Assembly (NCBI GenBank): GCA_964036295.1
Contig: OZ038463.1
Span: 6,935,274 to 6,999,273 of the forward strand
Length of the DNA stretch: 64,000 bases
Reading direction: 5' to 3'
Source: Plumapathes pennacea
Lineage: Eukaryota > Cnidaria > Anthozoa > Antipatharia > Myriopathidae
The notes under the pieces were generated by a model. The model did not search any database. It was not told the origin of the DNA and saw nothing but the letters and a program-made list of their open reading frames with translations. A program made the position numbers and the translations under genes. Below are positions 6,408 to 56,575 of the stretch, piece by piece (position 1 is the first letter of the stretch; the number at the start of each line of letters is the position of its first letter).

Positions 6408-6716
6408 TATAAACAACTAGACTGGCGTTGCCAGTGAGCTCGCGGCGTGAGTTGGGTCGAGACCAGAATATAAAATGGAAAGTAGGGGACAAGAGCGGAA
6501 CTCCCAAGAGAGACTTCCAGTTTCTCACCATAAAAATATCACACAGCATAGAGAACTTGGCTTTTGACACCTTGCTCTTTTGACACCTTGATTAAACTGA
6601 AAATTATCATTACAACACTCATACACTTGCTTCTTAAAGGTTGATCGACCCTGCATTTTGAGAATGCGTGACATATCTTTTTATGCACAATCGATTATGA
6701 CACTAACAGGATAAAC
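6408..6716 (+). repeat. Interspersed repeat R1, copy A
   Basis: It begins near CTAGACTGGCGTTGCCAGTG and contains GTGAGCTCGCGGCGTGAGTT, and ends near a GATTATGACA-type terminus. Similar copies lie at 46514-46587 plus 54791-55012, at 55873-56135, and reversed at 60298-60633 and 62365-62640. Here the sequence GGAAAGTAGGGGACAAG is uninterrupted, giving the unoccupied target for the 8.2-kb transposon. Confidence 0.75.
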
Positions 6717-46513: not shown

Positions 46514-46587
46514 TAAGACTAGACTGGCCTTGCCAGTGAGCTCGCGGCGTGAGTTGGGTCGAGACCAGGATATTTAATGGAAAGTAG
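46514..46587 (+). repeat. R1 repeat copy B, left portion
   Basis: The sequence from CTAGACTGGCCTTGCCAGTG to GGAAAGTAG is the left part of an R1 copy cut by the 8.2-kb transposon. The remainder is 54791-55012. The last TAG (46585-46587) is the left target duplication. Confidence 0.8.
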
Positions 46588-46785
46588 TAGTGGAGCTGAT
46601 ATGTGCAGAATTTGGACCGAGTTGTTCACTTTTAGTTAAAAGCACCAAACTTGCAGGAAATATTCATTTTGTCATACTAATAAATATCTGATATAGTGCC
46701 ATCGCGAAATTTGCTGCTAACTCCAGTTAAAGGGGGTTTCCAAAATGGCCGCCCTCTTGACCGGAAGTCAAATTCGATATTACCA
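46588..46785 (+). repeat. Left terminal inverted repeat
   Basis: Starts TAGTGGAGCTGATATGTGCA; conserved blocks TTGTTCACTTTTAGTTAAAA, GATATAGTGCCATCGCGAAA and CAAAATGGCCGCC pair with the right end. Identity to the right TIR is visibly high but with several indels. Confidence 0.85.
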
Positions 46786-47653
46786 AGAGTGGTAAAATTT
46801 AGACTTTAAATGTATTTTACGAATGCTAACATGTCCATATATATTTATCATCATATCATGAGCCTGGGATTTTAAAGCAGTGTCGCAAATATTTTGGTTT
46901 GTTTTGTGTCACCTCTACGCTGAACCGGAAGTGAGAGGTGACTTGAATGAAAGTGTTATAAAGTGTTTGAAATCATGTTAACTATTCAACAATTCTTGAA
47001 GTTTAATTTAAAGGTACTAGGCTCCTGGCATTTAGAAAATATTTTAGCTTTTTCTGTCCAATGGTGGAGGACGCACACATAACAAAACAGTTGCTAGTAC
47101 CCAGGAGTCTTAAGCTTGCGGAGCCGTGGCCGTTTGTTATCTGGGTACTAAGCTACCCACAGTTCAAGGTTATATCTAATTTGGATACTGGAGACGCCAT
47201 TTTCTCATCGACTGATCAGAAAAGGGCGAATTAAAATGTGATGTATAGCTTCGACACTATTCAACAAAATCAAAGCTAAAGCACTAAGATACAAGTTTAC
47301 AACTGCAATATTGGAAAGCTAACTGGAAAGGATGGTTTGATCATCACTGTATACACTGTAAATATCTGCTGATAAGTTTTTAACATGTTATAAATAATTA
47401 AAGTAAAGCTATTGTAGGTCCCAAGTTTCCTTCTAAAGTCATTTGCTAGCTTTAATGTTTCAATCACCGGTAAGTCACCACAATTTAATACGAACAACGG
47501 AGGAGAGACTTGCAAATAATTTGCAAATTTTAAATAAAAAATGTATTCAAAATTTCGAACACTGGAACCACTAAGAACTACAGATTTCGACGCAGCAGTT
47601 TAATACCTGGTTTTGTAATTCTGAATACTGAATCTTGAACTTTCAGTAAAGCA
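46786..47653. other. 5' leader of the transposon
   Basis: No reading frame or repeat is evident between the left TIR and the first ATG. The promoter of the large gene is expected here but I cannot point to a specific element. Confidence 0.4.
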
Positions 47654-50600
47654 ATGTCTAGTGTCAGTAAACTGGCAAGTGAGCAAGGAGCATCTGATGG
47701 TTCAAGCCAGACAGACTGGTCTCAGTGCGCTTTATGCCAACAAAATACAAGCGAGCCGTTACAGTGCCCTGCAGATTCTAAGCGGAAGTCTGATGTAGGA
47801 GCAGGCTACAAGACTTTGGCCGGTAATCTAGTACAGTTCAGTGATCTTGGTTGCGTGCCAAAAGAGATAAATCTTTCAAGACTAGACGAGGGTGGTGGGA
47901 TAGGGGATACATTTGTAAGGTGCAAGGCTCGCTGGCACAGAAGTTGCTATGCCCTCTTTAATTCAACGAAGCTTAAACGAGCAGAAAAAAGACGTAGTTC
48001 GCTGGAACGCGAGGAGGTAGGAGGAAGGTATACGCGCTCGAATACTACTGCATTCACAAGTACCGCTACATGCTTTGTATGCGATGAGTTTGGTACGCGA
48101 AACAAACCTCTGTACAACGTTTCAACCCTTGGTTTAGATGCTCGAGTACGAACGTGTGCATTTGCATTACAAGACGACAAGCTTTTAGCTAAACTCAGCG
48201 AAGGAGACTTAGTAACGCTCGAGGCAAAATATCACGCCGCATGTTTAGCCTTACTGTACAAAAAGGCAAGGACAGTGAGAGACGAAGACGAAAAAGATGA
48301 AGAAATTCAACGTCCTGGGGGTATTGCACTTGCCGAGTTAGTTGCTTACATAGAAAAGTCGCGTAATAGTGCAGCAGAACTCCAAGTTTTCAAACTTGCG
48401 GACCTGGCCAGAATGTATAAGTCCCGTATGCAGCAGCTTGGTGAGGACACAACCGCTCTTGTAAACACTTCGCGGCTGAAAGAGCGTATCCTTTCACACG
48501 TTCCTAATCTCGAAGCCTACAATCAAGGGCGTGATGTGTTTCTTGCTTTTAAACAAGATCTTGGATTCGCTCTACAGAAGGTTCAGAAGGAGAACTGCGA
48601 CGAAGAAGCAATGCATCTAGCCAAAGCCGCAAGTATTGTGCGCAAAGACATGCTGGGAAAGAAATACACGTTTGATGGTTCGTTTCAGCCTAACTGCCAG
48701 GAGAACTCTGTTCCAGCGTCACTGGTAGCTCTAGTTAGTATGATTCTTTATGGGCCGAGCATTGAAACTCAAGCCAACACCTCATCTAAATCTCAAGCTG
48801 GTCTCACCATTTCTCAGCTAATACAATACAACAGCTATGCTCGTCGCCGCGAAGGAGACGCGCAGCGGGAGCGACGAAACAAATCTCGCGAGACGCCACT
48901 TCCTCTTTATATAGGGCTATCTGTTCATGCCAAGACCCGTTGCCGTGATCTTATTGAGATTATGCACAGTCTGGGACTTTGTGTGTCATACAACAGAGTT
49001 CTTGCACTTTCAACGGATCTGGGAAATGCTGTTTGCCGTCCCTACCAAGATGAGAGTGTTGTGTGCCCTTCCAATCTTCGCCTGGGTTTATTCACAACGG
49101 CCGCTGTAGATAATATCGACCACAATCCAAGTTCAACAACAGCGCATGATTCCTTTCACGGAACGGGGATATCCATGTTTCAGCACTCCACTGCTGAAGT
49201 GCCTGGCATAACTCGAAATTGTGTGGCTATTGCGCAAACAGCGACAAATACAAAGTCCGTAGCAGAATTACCCGAGTCTTATACCGAAGTTGCACCAGTT
49301 GTTCTTCAGAACAAAACTCCTCTAGTCTCGGAAATGCCTGGGCACCAGCAAGAGGACACAAACATCATAAACCATGCCATGGGAGAAGAGATGGACTGGC
49401 TCGACAATACTAGAAACATTGTTGCAAATCACCAGAATCTGGAAGACGGTAACAACGTTTCCTGGGCAGCATTTCATTCCACCACAGAAAAACAACAACA
49501 GGATAGTCGTCCTTCCGCCATATCTGCTTTATTGCCTCTTTTCCCCGATCAAGCTAAGTCAGTGGCAATGATTCGACATGCAGTGAATGTCATCAAAGCA
49601 TGTGTGAATCACCTAAATCCTGGTCAGGTGCCTGTAATCGCTATGGATCAGCCATTGTACGCCATCGCAAAGCAAATTCAGTGGAACTGGCAGGATAACT
49701 ATGGAGAGAGAAAGTTTGTCATCATGTTTGGCGGCCTTCACATTGAAATGGCCTTTTTGAAAGCCATTGGTGGGTGGTTGGAAGATAGCGGATGGACAAC
49801 TGCACTAGTAGATGCTAACGTTGTCTCAGCTGGAACAGCCGAATCATTCATCAAAGCCTCGAGCGTTAAGCGTTCACGAAGAGCACATCAAGTAACGGCC
49901 AGCAGCCTGTATGTCCTATTGCAGAAGGCTTATACTAAGTATACAGAGGGCCTGAACAACAGAGATGATACCCTTCCGTTCGACGACTGGTGTAATCAGC
50001 AGGCATTAGCAGTACCACAGTTCCAGTTCTGGTACACAACCCTGCAACTTGAATTTATTGCTCTTGCTGTTCGTTAGGTCGCTTCGTCAAGCCAACTTCG
50101 ACCTCTACATTGACGTTCTTTCCGAGATGTTACCGTGGTTTTTTGCCTTGAACCACACCAACTATGCACGTTGGCTCCCAGTTCATCTTCGCGACATGTG
50201 TGTACTGCAGCAGACGGTCCCAGACGTCGCTTCTCAGTTCGACAAAGGATTGTTCACAGTCAACAAGTCCTCTAGACGGTTCTCTGCGATCGCCATTGAT
50301 CAGGCCCACGAGCAGAACAATGCAATGGTCAAAGGAGATGGTGGGGCTGTTGGCCTGACAGAAAACCCCAGCGCTCTTCGCCGATGGATGCTGTCAGGGC
50401 CTGAAGTGGCAAGGTTGGTGAATGAGTTTGAAGCCCACTTGACGACGAAGGTGGACGCTCAAACTGGTATACATCACCATGAAGTTCAAAGAAGCTTTCA
50501 AGCGTCATTCTTCGAAGATGTCAAATCGCTTGCCACAACAATGGAAGATCTAGGAAATCCTTTCCTGGAAGAAAGTGGAGATCTTTTAGTCCTCGACACC

Positions 50601-52125
50601 AAGGAAATTGCCGGACCAGCTGCAGTAGAGAGGATGCGTCAGGTAGAGACCATTGGTAGGGAGCAGTGCCACACCTTCATAACTGAGAGCCTGGTGAATC
50701 GAAACAAGTTATTGTACGACCCGATTAAGAGAAACAAACTTTGCTTGTTTACTTCACCTCCGCCAAAGAAATCAGCCAAGACGACAGAGCAGCTATCCTC
50801 TATGAAGAGCAATTGCTCACTTTTTGCCAGACTCTACATATCCTGCCAAACGAGGGATGGTGACTTAGATGAATTTTTCAAGCATGAGAATCAAGGATGT
50901 CCTCCATCTTTGTCTAATCTTGGAAAATTGCGTCTTCCCAAGAAGAAATCGGAGCTGACGGAATGTATCCAGACTCATACCACGCCACAAAGTGAGATGC
51001 CTGGTTCTATTGACATCACCATCATTGACGGAGCTGCAGTTGTCAACATGATCAAGCCAGGGTTGGAGAAAACATTTTACGGTTATGCTGAGCAATCATT
51101 CTTGCCCTATGTAAAGGCACAGCTTCGCCATGCTGAACGTGTAGACATTGTATGGGACGAGTACCTGAAGAATAGCCTGAAAGCAACAACTAGTAGGTGT
51201 AACCGAGGGGCCGGTGTCCGACGGCGCGTTGCAGCCAACAATCAGCTTCCGCGTAATTGGAAAGAATTTCTGCGCGTAGACGACAACAAGCGCGAACTTT
51301 TCAAGTTTTTGGCTGAGTGCATTGCATCCCTCGATGTAGAGAAACAGGTCATCACAACGTACGGAGAGCAAGTTTTGTGCACCTTACCGCGTGATGAAAC
51401 CTTAAGCCTGGCTCCCTGCACGCACGAAGAAGCCGACACGAGAATGCTGCTACATGTTGCAGATGCAGTGCAACGCGGTAACAAGAAAATACTTCTGCGA
51501 ACTGTCGACACTGATGTTCTCGTGCTGGCCGTGGCAGTCGTGCAGGAACTTGAAGACAGCGAACGCCTTGAGCTATGGGTTGCGTATGGCACTGGTACGC
51601 TCTTCGATACATTGCTGCCCATGAGATCTCTAGAAGTCTTGGACCACAAGTCTCCAAAGCACTTCCAGTATTCCATGCTTTCACCGGGTGTGACACGGTA
51701 TCTTGCTTCGGCGGAAGAGGGAAGAAAACAGCCCTGGAAGCTTGGAAATGCTATCCGGATGTGACAGATGCATTCCTTACCTTAGCTCAAAGTCCAACCG
51801 GGGTCAGCAACGCATGCATGAAACATTTTGAGCGGCTTTAGTGGAGCACACTAAGCGTGCTGCGTATCAGGCAGGTCACTGTTGGGGACAAGCACTGATG
51901 CCCAATCCAGTACTCCCGAATCCACAAGATTGGGGATGGACGCTAGATGAAGAAATCTGGAAGCCTTTCTGGACCACGCTACCCGACGTAACGAAGTCGT
52001 GTCGTAAACTCGTCCGATGCGGATGTAAGAAAGGGTGTCAGGCAAGCTGCTCCTGCGTGAAGGTGGACTTAAGCTGCACTTCTCTCTGCACCTGCACTGA
52101 TGAGTGCAGCAACAGAAATATATAA
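47654..52125 (+). pseudogene. Large transposon protein: zinc modules, PIN/FEN-like domain, CXC tail (two frameshifts)
   Basis: ATG at 47654. The first frame (to 50077) has two Cys/His modules, CALCQQ with WHRSCYALF and CFVCDE with YHAACLALL, then a long region with YNSYARRREGDAQRERRNKS. A one-base shift in a T run at 50054-50056 leads to a second frame with VRSLRQANFDLYIDVLSEML and FALNHTNYARWLPVHLRDMC. Near 51420-51530 it has HEEADTRMLLHVADA and TVDTDVLVLAVAVV. A second shift near 51600 leads to RYIAAHEISRSLGP and FHAFTGCDTVSCFGGRGKK. Another break at 51836-51841 leads to a CXC tail (CGCKKGCQASCSCVKVDLSC). The acidic residues and GCD-x(9)-GKK order resembles FEN/PIN nucleases. The breaks suggest inactivity, or errors in the assembly. 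Confidence 0.65.
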
Positions 52126-52696
52126 CGTTCAGAGCAATTACTCGGCCGAATTTTTTGAGAGCTACCCTGTCTCCTGTATGTTCGAATCTGTGAAAGTATT
52201 TGGCTTTCAAAATTCGTAAAAAAGTTTTGATACCTCCAGTAATACCGTACATGCACTATGACACATTATTAGGTTTTAAGACTGAGTTAAGCCGCTACTG
52301 TATCTGAAACATGTACCGGTAAATATTTTTTGTGGCAGCAAAAATGAAACAGACAAACAGTGTAATTAGCATGTAAAGAAAAACTATTTCTTTGACTGCT
52401 TCTGCTAAAAGTATCTTTCACTTCCGGTTTGTGCTGAATGCCCTTTAAAAGCATTTTTTATGCCGTCAACCAAAAGTATTCCTTTAATAAATTATACGTG
52501 TACGTCTTTACTGTTCCTGTAGACTGTTTATCTGTATTTAGAAGGATAAAAAATACATTCTACCACAACACACTAGTTTCTCGCTCTCTGATTGGTCGAT
52601 TTACCGTGGTAAATGAGAGTCCAGACAACGATGCTGACGCCAACATTCGTGTCGCCAGCATTCATGTTTCAGAGGCTTCCTTTTAATAATTTGAAC
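52126..52696. promoter_or_regulatory. Putative leader/promoter of the recombinase gene
   Basis: Contains TGATTGGTCGATTTACCGTG (52587-52606), a reversed CCAAT box next to a short palindrome, followed by GGTAAATGAGAGTCCA. A similar arrangement (GATTGGTCGAAAACCGTGG) is near 30988. No coding sequence seen. Confidence 0.35.
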
Positions 52697-54182
52697 ATGG
52701 ATAATTTTGAGTGCTTCCCGACTTTTGAACTCGGTATAAACGTCTTGGCAGATTTCGACAGCTTTGACACAACGGATGACGAATTAATTGAACACGCTGA
52801 GATGGCAGAGAAAACCCAAACCGAAAGCCTGGTCGAGACTAACAAATTAGTGTCGGAAAACACTCGCTTTGCATTGTTAACCGATGAGGACCTGACGGCG
52901 ATAATTAGCAGCGCTGAGGCAAAGGGAACAAAGAAGAATACAAAGTGGATAGTCAACACAATCGAAGGTAAACATATTTATTAAATATGTCATGGTTAAT
53001 ATATTTTTAAAGCTGTACTTACAAAGTTCTGCTGTTGTTTACATTGCAGAATGGTGCCGTGACCGCGAGCTACCCAGCAACTTATTGACAATGAGGTACG
53101 AAGACATGGAAAATGTTCTTCGGAGATTTTACGCCGAGGCTAGGACCAAGAAGGGTGAGGAATACGGGAGGTCGTCGCTGCTTGGTTTCAGAAATGCAGT
53201 TGAGAGATATCTCGCCGCCAACAACCGGGAGGTGAAAATCACCAAGAATCCCTTGTTCGCCCGGTCCAACAAAATGCTTGGGTGCAAACTGAAGCTCAAC
53301 CGCAGACAAGGTAAAGAAAACGTGCAACACAAGGCAGTCATCCAACCAGAGGATATCGAGAAGCTGAAAAACAGCCCATTCTTAAGCTGCAGCGATGCCG
53401 CGGGTCTCCTTCGCCGTGTGTGGTTTATCGTTACACTGTTCTGGTGCCGGCGCGGCTGTGAAGGTCAAAGGCAACTTCGCCGGGATAGTTTCAGGTTTCT
53501 AACCGACGCAGACGGCCAGAATTACGCCGAAATGACCCACGATGTCCAGACCAAGAACCACCAGGGAGGAATATCTGAGAAAACCAGCCACGAAAAGCAG
53601 ACCCGGCTCTACTCGACGGGTCAGATTGATGACTCCTACAGGTGTCTTCAGAAGTATGTGCAAAAGCTGAAACCAAACCAGCCAGCCTTTTTCCAGCGAC
53701 CCAAGCCAAAAGCCAATGAATCAGATCAAGTGTGGTACGACAACAGCCCTCTGGGAGTCAACACGCTGTCGAAAATGATGAAAGAAATCTCGCTCGGCGC
53801 TGGCCTTTCACAGATCTACACAAATCACTGTGTTAGAGCGACGGCCATCACAATTTGGTCCAACGCCGAAGTGCCTTCTCGCCACATAATGTCGATCTCT
53901 GGTCACGCCAACGAACAGAGTATTGCAAACTATAACTCAAGACCATCGGCTCAACAACTGAAGAACTGCTCAAACATCCTCTCCGATGCACTAGTTGGCC
54001 GAGCACCGACTTCAACTGCAGTTGTTCCAGCGACATCTCCGGGTTCGTCTTCAACTAACACAGTTCATCTTTGTGCTTCAAACACCAGCGCTATGTCCTT
54101 CCCGAGTGGAATATTCCGTGACTGCACTATTGCAAATGCTAATGTGTATATTCTGCCCCCAAATAACGGCAATGTTGTTTGA
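52697..54182 (+). CDS. Crypton-like tyrosine recombinase, two exons
   Basis: Exons 52697-52967 and 53050-54182 flank an 82-bp intron with GTAAAC donor and TACATTGCAG acceptor; the joined frame reads TIEEWCRDRELPSN and gives 467 residues. The DUF3504-type catalytic region has FWCRRGCEGQRQLRRDSF (candidate first arginine R224/R225), TNHCVRATAITIW (H350, R353), SGHANEQSIANYNSR (H376, nucleophile Y385). This R..H-x-x-R..H..Y order is the tyrosine recombinase signature, of the kind shared with Cryptons and their domesticated relatives KCTD1, QRICH1 and ZMYM proteins. The start at 52697 is chosen over 52613 because MDNFECFPTFE is the coding-like N-terminus. No disabling change was seen, in contrast to the upstream gene. 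Confidence 0.85.
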
Positions 54183-54401
54183 ACATTTGTGCACGTTTCG
54201 AGAACTTTTGAACTCGCCAAGTTAGTTTTCAAGCTATTGTTGTAATGACCAATCAGAAACGCCTATTTCAGGCACTTGAAAAAATAAACCAATCAGATTG
54301 CGAGAAAGTTATAGACAATGCTTGCTCTTTTTATCTGTCACGTTTTGCGACAAAATACAACGAAACTTTGTTGTATATTTCTAATTATTGTGGTAGAAAA
54401 C

Positions 54402-54582
54402 AAATTTCCACTGGTTTGCCGTGGTGTGGACTCTTATTTACCACGATTTACGTCATCACATGGTCAAAATTAGTTGCGGACTCACTCGACGAAGCGCCTC
54501 GTGAGTCCACAACATTTTGACCATGTGATGACGTAAATCGTGGTAAATAAGAGTCCACACCACGGCAAACCAGTGGAAATTT
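54402..54582. repeat. Long hairpin with ~80-bp arms near the right TIR
   Basis: AAATTTCCACTGGTTTGCCG at 54402 pairs with its complement ending at 54582. The arms stay near perfect through TTTACCACGATTTACGTCAT to a centre near GACGAAGCGCCTCG. It lies between the recombinase stop and the right TIR. Its right arm shares CGTGGTAAATAAGAGTCCA with the sequence upstream of the recombinase start. Confidence 0.85.
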
Positions 54583-54593
54583 ATTAATTTTAA

Positions 54594-54790
54594 TTGTACA
54601 TCCGGACCACGCACTTTTACTTCCGGTCCAAGATGGCGGCCATTTTGAAAATACGCCTTAACTCGGAAACCCATCAATTTTCGCGGTGGCACTATATCTA
54701 TAATTGATAGGCACACTAAAACCTGTCTTTCTGCCAAATTTGATGCTTTTAACCAAAAGTGAACAATCCATGCACATATCCGCTCCACTA
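54594..54790 (-). repeat. Right terminal inverted repeat
   Basis: Complement of the left TIR at 46588-46785, ending GCTCCACTA at 54790. GATGGCGGCCATTTTGAAAA and GTGGCACTATATC are conserved blocks. Confidence 0.85.
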
Positions 54791-55012
54791 TAGGGGACAA
54801 GAGCGGAACTCCCAAGAGAGACTTCCAATTTCCATAAAAATATCACACAGTATAGAGAACTTGGCTTTTGACACCTTGCTCTTTTGACACCTTGATTAAA
54901 CTAAAAATTATTATTACAACACTCATACACTTGCTTCTTAAAGGTTGAGCGACCCTGCATCTTGAGAATGCGTGACATATCTTTTTATGCACAATTGATT
55001 ATGACAGTTTGA
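54791..55012 (+). repeat. R1 repeat copy B, right portion
   Basis: Resumes with TAGGGGACAAGAGCGGAACT and continues through CTTTTGACACCTTGATTAAA to GATTATGACA, matching 6478-6716. With 46514-46587 it reconstitutes one R1 copy. Confidence 0.85.
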
Positions 55013-55014
55013 CC

Positions 55015-56575
55015 TTGACTCTTATTGCTCGCGGGAGCCTGGGGTCCAAGGGAGCTTAAAAACGGAAATTTTTCTTTTTTTTTCTTTTTGTGGGTCGAGA
55101 ATCAACACACGGTGATTGGTTTATATTATCACGTGCTAAGCGATGACCGTAATTGACTTCGCTAAACAACTCGAGATGTGGCCAGTGAATTGCTCGTTAC
55201 TTGTGTGTAAAATTTAACTGCATCCCATCCAAACTCAACACCATTTGGCTCTGTGGAATATGCACGGATAAACTGGATTTTCGGGAACGATTTTGATTCG
55301 CGTTCACCGCGGAAGCTTTGAGAATAGCCGTAGACAAATATTTGATGGATACCGCTGGGGGATTGCAGATATCTCTGTCGCCGATAAGTATTTAGTTCCG
55401 GCAAAACCTTCTGTGGCGATACGAAATACTTTTGGGAAGATAACAGGGCGAAAACAGAAACCAAAGCTACGGTGAGCTTTAGCCGTAAAACAATGACGCT
55501 TTATGCTTTACTCTGTACATGACATCTGTTGCCTCATAAAATTCTTCTGCGTATCGTACATTACCTGTTGAAGTATTTCTTTCATTCGATCATGTAGCCT
55601 TTGTTTCGCAATGTTCATTAAATACCAGAAATAAAAAATACACCGAAATAATTCTGAGGATTGAGTTTGCAGTTACAAATGGACTGAACACACTGTGAAC
55701 AAAACCGCAATAATATTGTAAACATCTCTCGTGTGACACTCCTCGCTTTCAATTTTATATTTGTTACAGAGCACGAATACTCGAAAGCCTGATAGAATAA
55801 ACGTATTGAGTTAATAAAAGAAAACACATAAGTAGTGAAGCGAAGGCTGGATTAATCGTGGCCTCTGATTAGAAACTAGACTGGCCTTGCCAGTGAGCTC
55901 GCGGCGTGAGTTGGGTCGAGACCAGAATATTTAATGGAAAGTAGGGGACAAGAGCAGAACTCCCAAGAGAGACTTCCAGTTTCTCACCATAAAAATATCA
56001 CACAGTATAGAGAACTTGGCTTTTGACACCTTGATTAAACTAAAAATTATTATTACAATAATAATTAAATAATTATTATTAAGTAATAATAATTTTTAGT
56101 TTAATCAAGGTGTCAAAAGAGCAAGGTGTCAAAAGCCAAAGTATTTCGTGTCGCCACAGAAAGTTTCGCCGGGACTAAATACTTATCGGCGACAGAGATA
56201 TTTGCAATCCCCAGCGGTATCCATCAAACATTTGTTTACGGCTATTCTCAAAGCTTCCGCGGTGAACGAGAGCCAAAATCGTTCCCGAAAATCCAGTTTA
56301 TCCGTGCATATTCCACAGAGCCAAATGGTGTTGAGTTTGGATGTGATGCAGTTAACTTTTACACACAAGTAACGAGCAATTCACTGGCCACATCTCGAGT
56401 TGTTTAGCGAACTCAATTACCTCTCGTCTAGCACGTGATAATATGAACCAATCACCGTGTGCCCATTCTCGACCGACAAAAAGGAAAAAAATAAATAAAA
56501 ATTTGCGTTTTTAAGCTCGCTTGGGCCCCAGGCCCCCGCGAGCAATTAGCAGTAGACACCGAGGTCAAATAATAT
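55015..56575. repeat. Inverted pair of a ~430-bp repeat (R2)
   Basis: The unit 55015-55440 is repeated in reverse at about 56140-56575, both ending in GCTCGCGGGAGCC-type sequence next to a GGTCAA. A third copy, same orientation as the first, is at 58845-59265. The minus-strand frame of the first and plus-strand frame of the second both read HQTFVYGYSQSFRGERE-like sequence and TEPNGVEFG. The third copy is frameshifted, so coding is doubtful. The middle (55470-55870) is AT-rich with nothing recognised. Confidence 0.65.
55873..56135 (+). repeat. R1 repeat copy C, ending in a partial palindrome
   Basis: It starts AAACTAGACTGGCCTTGCCA and shows the uninterrupted GGAAAGTAGGGGACAAG target at about 55935. 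Beyond 56060 an inverted piece (TTTTTAGTTTAATCAAGGTG) folds back on 56028-56050. Confidence 0.75.

Follow-up and report, generated by a model that had tools for sequence, protein, structure and literature searches.

The window analysed here, a stretch of 64,000 nucleotides from Plumapathes pennacea (part of contig 2 in an assembly of 290 Mb and 24 contigs), contains an insertion of 8,203 bp (46588-54790) with inverted ends, imperfect terminal inverted repeats (TIRs) and a TAG duplication. Between its ends lie two large genes, one coding for a protein with a FEN-like nuclease and a cysteine-rich tail, and the other for a Crypton-type tyrosine recombinase. This raises the question of whether both enzymes serve a single transposon, which might then represent a distinct class with a nuclease-like or combined mechanism, or whether a Crypton resides inside a TIR element, the two possibilities left by an initial annotation of the sequence. 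We hold with strong confidence that a Crypton-like recombinase element is nested within an Academ-like TIR element, that the pairing of the genes is coincidental, and that the two elements would have moved by the mechanisms set out below. The nesting itself, as judged from sequence comparison, can be assigned with very high confidence.

Relatives of the outer element were sought in the whole assembly by its two ends, the best 40 of 61 candidates being scored for the left end (at least 42 matches) and the best 40 of 66 for the right end (at least 40 matches); since the TIRs resemble each other, each set includes some opposite ends. Of the 20 regions retrieved, 18 contain both ends and two the right end only; at least four more pairs of ends were seen beyond those fetched whole. 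When the outer region was compared with these 20 loci by BLAST, the matches extended to about window position 52518 and resumed at 54589, mostly 39 nt apart in the relatives. The gap between the matches at the position of the recombinase was 110 nt or less in 18 loci, the exceptions being one whose left piece matched elsewhere in the locus (L029) and one deleted at the recombinase position (L045). The insert was set as 52558-54587, and with the window flanks joined accordingly, 19 of the 20 loci align across the junction without a gap there. None of the 20 relatives carries the recombinase at this place, although the initial annotation had expected a distinct class to show both genes in copies with these TIRs. 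The insert is bounded by the same end sequences as its relatives dispersed through the genome. The outer gene shows three frameshifts, compared with the open frame of the recombinase, and a broken outer gene beside an open recombinase gene is the pattern of a late insertion. The proposal that short outer copies had lost the recombinase by deletion was dropped, because at the boundaries of the recombinase element their sequence runs unbroken into both flanks.

The left TIR of the outer element (46588..46782, plus strand) starts with TAGTGGAGC and the right TIR (54596..54790, minus strand) finishes with GCTCCACTA. The extreme termini (46588-46607 and 54771-54790) are 95% complementary and the inner parts (46622-46759 and 54629-54766) 72%. 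By itself the 9-mer TAGTGGAGC, found three times against 0.26 expected, a number reached in 1 of 100 shuffles, is weak evidence for termini; both ends are corroborated by copies elsewhere in the genome, and the inverted termini first proposed are thus upheld, with repeats that are imperfect. The TAG target-site duplication (TSD) at 46585-46587 and 54791-54793 likewise stands. Loci with common flanks were counted as one insertion, and L035 and L046 (with unreadable right ends), L047 and L048 were set aside; on this count an exact 3-bp TSD is present in eight of nine distinct insertions with both ends readable (TAG in the window, and TAC, TCA, CAA, TAA, TGA, AAA and TTA), while the ninth has mismatched flanks (AAA and AAC). 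A duplication of 3 bp is therefore general, as had been surmised, but a TAG-like sequence is not. Within the window, the joined outer flanks find a match that crosses the join in three places, which represent unoccupied copies of the target repeat: 6416-6702 (94.8% identity), 55875-56058 (88.5%) and 60634-60386 (81.5%). These paralogous empty sites, of which only two had been noted before, also support the left TSD. Separately, the initial ~518 bp of the outer element are present, with 88-89% identity, at seven loci (L002-L008, on contigs C4, C14, C16, C17 and C20). Three of these loci are on C4, about 11, 91 and 17 kb from its ends, and the rest in contigs shorter than 90 kb, as if, from their sequence and placement, a truncated outer copy had been taken up into a subtelomeric repeat.

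The large gene of the outer element occupies four overlapping open pieces on the plus strand, with frame changes near 50070, 51600 and 51835 that are read as frameshifts, assembly error being a possible alternative. Because the gene is frameshifted, the element, initially described as complete, is complete in its ends only. The first piece (47654..50074, 807 aa) codes for a Cys-rich N-terminus and the first part of a predicted DDE domain, with candidate catalytic residues D1 in VDNID (codons 49109 and 49118) and D2 in DQPLY (codon 49646), the codons being read by eye. The second (50010..51764) comprises the rest of this domain, including a candidate E in DQAHEQNN (codon 50310), and most of a FEN/XPG-like nuclease with the motifs IIDGAA (Asp at 51027), HEEAD and DTD. 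The third (51572..51841) covers the FEN/XPG helix-hairpin region FTGCDT..GRGKKTA, and the fourth (51832..52125) the C-terminus with a CXC-like (tesmin/TSO1-like) cysteine tail. The assignment of this tail is based on the spacing of the cysteines and on homologs named CXC/TCR domain proteins; a Pfam search with the fourth piece gave no match.

The presence of a DDE transposase, which had not been recognized in the initial annotation, is indicated by the predicted fold of homologs of the outer protein, which resembles those of the P-element, Hermes and RAG transposases, and by conservation of the D, D and E among the homologs. A first homolog model (P0126), from which the region of the first DDE Asp was missing, showed no DDE match in its central part, and another homolog that contains this region was then folded as a second model. 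In a Foldseek search with the second model unrelated proteins ranked first, and RAG1 appeared at an E-value of about 1. The predicted RNase-H-like core is shared with the P element, Hermes (hAT) and RAG1/Transib at about 10% identity, and in the modelled homolog, at the structure level, the catalytic E is preceded by a large helical insertion, as in those three systems, none of which is known to have a FEN/XPG nuclease and a CXC tail. The PIN/FEN-like assignment made initially was borne out, since the predicted structure of this part of a homolog matches the FEN1/EXO1/XPG type; the nuclease residues are conserved in 47-48 of 48 homologs. Searches of Pfam, NCBIfam and PDB sequences with the outer protein yielded no usable family except for a weak similarity to DUF6589. 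On the basis of these models, confidence in a combined DDE and FEN/XPG architecture is high. The named homologs among the best, for this protein and for the recombinase, come from sea anemones and corals, including Actinostola, Acropora, Desmophyllum and Actinia.

The outer element would thus be a decayed cut-and-paste DNA transposon of the Academ kind, about 6.2 kb long without the insert, whose single large protein would join the Cys-rich N-terminus, a P-element/hAT/RAG-like DDE core, the FEN1/EXO1/XPG-type nuclease and the CXC-like tail. Its assignment to the AcademX lineage is made with moderate to high confidence and reflects the domain combination and TSD length. The nuclease of AcademX is of the XPG type, and here a DDE transposase domain and such a nuclease are predicted in the same protein, together with TIRs, 3-bp duplications and a similar length, all in common with AcademX, from which the window copy differs in being frameshifted and in holding a nested element. 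In the available text of PMC10045372, the TSD is 3 or 4 bp in AcademX and 9 or 10 bp in AcademH, its length being tied to the accessory enzyme ('helicase and nuclease'). A DDE transposon with a FEN/XPG nuclease that belongs to some superfamily other than Academ is unlikely: the main Pfam similarity of the outer protein, DUF6589 (28 of 48 homologs, best 4e-8), does not bear an Academ label, but the combination of DDE domain, nuclease and 3-bp TSD is the one that the same text attributes to AcademX, and without the insert the element comes close in length to the curated bivalve Academ elements, which average 5,565 bp in the part of PMC10294476 consulted.

In the mechanism proposed for this Academ-like element, the DDE core would cut at the TIR ends and join them to the target across a 3-bp stagger, which would give rise to the 3-bp duplications, while the nuclease probably has an accessory role, trimming flaps or gaps where ends have been excised or inserted. 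Later, the Crypton-like element of 2,030 bp inserted downstream of the transposase gene, ahead of the right TIR. This element would be mobilised by its own recombinase, possibly by way of a circular intermediate, with no clear duplication and with A-rich half-sites beside its left arm, and would take no part in the movement of the outer element.

A true composite, with the recombinase captured by the outer element and the two genes co-mobile from then on, appears very improbable. It has a precedent in print, the Mariner-Crypton MarCry-1_FO of Fusarium, which is likewise a DDE-type TIR element holding a Crypton recombinase gene, and the frame of the recombinase is open between intact outer TIRs. 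According to the sections of PMC3212892 available, MarCry-1_FO is represented by four copies more than 97% identical that carry the unit's TIRs and TA duplications, whereas the present case is a single nested one whose site is empty in 19 of 20 relatives. Mobilisation of both genes together in several copies was not found: a genome search with the outer ORF2, in which 10 of 10 candidates were scored, gave one full match, at the window itself, and three others that were weak and partial, so that no second copy of the gene pair came to light, whereas the recombinase matches 106 stretches. The recombinase segment also has its own termini, which are those of its dispersed relatives, and the broken outer gene beside an open recombinase fits late insertion rather than a composite. 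Least probable of all, and by now scarcely credible, is a distinct class of TIR transposon that would move by means of the nuclease, with or without the recombinase. The conservation of the nuclease residues argues that this enzyme matters to the element, but a DDE fold is predicted, its D, D and E are conserved, and the recombinase is a late, independent arrival. The initial annotation had named copies lacking the recombinase and a DDE transposase in the large protein as grounds against such a class; both apply here, the second by predicted fold. The two-enzyme appearance is explained by chance nesting, therefore no new transposon class is called for, and of the two initial possibilities it is the TIR element with an internal Crypton that prevails; a candidate for a new class is thereby removed and replaced by the nesting of two known kinds of element. 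The results also suggest that many unnamed animal proteins, some of them labelled 'tesmin/TSO1-like CXC domain-containing', are DDE plus FEN/XPG transposases.

The nested Crypton-like element (52558..54587, plus strand) has the ends TTCTACCACAACACAC (left) and CCAGTGGAAATTTATTAA (right) and a single recombinase gene on the same strand, with a first exon at 52613..52967 (possible start ATG at 52613 or 52698), an in-frame GT-AG intron at 52968-53049, whose splice sites were inferred by eye, and an open second exon at 53050..54182 that codes for a DUF3504/phage-integrase domain (Pfam DUF3504, E 9e-11; Phage_integrase, E 9e-8). The HCVR, GH and NY motifs, the last with the Tyr, are present, so that the R-H-R-Y set of Cryptons can be traced, the assignment of its first Arg being uncertain. 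The protein has 228 homologs, and its 106 matched stretches in the genome range from near-identical down to 24%. The 14 loci that reach the recombinase gene (L050-L063) are 97.3-99.3% identical over the stretches fetched, and a further one (L078) 93-99%.

The right-end 18-mer of the nested element has 1,032 exact places in the genome and the left-end 16-mer of the short derivatives, one base off the left end in the window, has 1,098, with no occurrence of the read-backwards control in either case. The right end of the nested element also contains a near-perfect hairpin (54399..54585) with 72-nt arms that are 99% complementary, and both arms are retained in 11 of 14 short-derivative loci (L064-L077). 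The hairpin was considered as a separate small hitch-hiking element, but the pairing of ends on contig 1 argues, short of proof, for one unit. There, a left end on the same strand lies within 2.5 kb of 49 of the 80 right ends used, against two in the opposite-strand control, and 27 of the 49 pairs span 335-352 bp; when exact matches only are taken, 31 of the 80 right ends stay unpaired, as do 49 of the 98 left ends. Three right ends located below 1 Mb were left out of this count, as were the final 17 right-end and two left-end places beyond 31.5 Mb, and the left-end pattern used matches the short derivatives but not the left end in the window.

Insertion without target duplication is a defining trait of Cryptons, and at the two empty sites compared, those of the window insertion and of an insertion in L030/L037, no duplication was seen beyond 0-2 ambiguous T. 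The latter is a short derivative at another site inside these two outer copies (one duplicated insertion), and its site is empty in 29 loci from 19 distinct places. A palindromic junction, GTTGTGGTAAAA-N6-8-TTTTACCACAAC, occurs at six places, three of them duplicates of one, and not at all in the control; in L068, L069 and L071, the first two being duplicates, it lies between tandem copies of short derivatives, which present 12-bp inverted arms separated by a spacer of 6-8 bp. Most fetched copies, however, have CCAGTGGAAATTTATTAA or a near variant as their right end. Copies of the nested element favour an A-rich half beside the left arm: AAAA stands 5-8 bp upstream of this arm in 316 pattern matches, compared with 42 at 16-19 bp, overlapping matches and duplicated loci being included at both distances, and an A is found 11 nt before TACC in 23 of 23 distinct left flanks, three of which are element sequence themselves.

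These features raise the hypothesis, which we hold tentatively and at slightly less than even chances, that recombination takes place between the inverted arms TTTTACCACAAC and GTTGTGGTAAAA around a core of 6-8 bp, in a circular or tandem form, and that integration proceeds without duplication where the host provides AAAA 5-8 bp from the left arm, the right-end hairpin perhaps serving as the other arm. As described in the accessible portions of PMC3212892, typical recombinase sites are inverted repeats of 11-13 bp, 6-8 bp apart; animal Cryptons have no terminal repeats and fungal Cryptons short direct ones; and non-autonomous copies abound in medaka and Rhodnius. The abundance of short derivatives is for that reason not new. 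The element shares with animal Cryptons (CryptonA/CryptonI) these many non-autonomous derivatives, the single DUF3504/phage-integrase gene and the lack of a clear TSD, and differs in the 12-bp inverted arms of the tandem copies and the right-end hairpin. The structure of the site may thus be new for animal Cryptons, for which the nested element offers a testable model and, if the model is true, a defined recombination site.

In two regions, C4:22-26 Mb and C6:20-23 Mb, many copies of the outer element have flanks in common, as do Crypton-like copies on C4, and by their sequence these regions look like large recent segmental duplications; eight of the loci that reach the recombinase gene sit in the duplicated region of C4.
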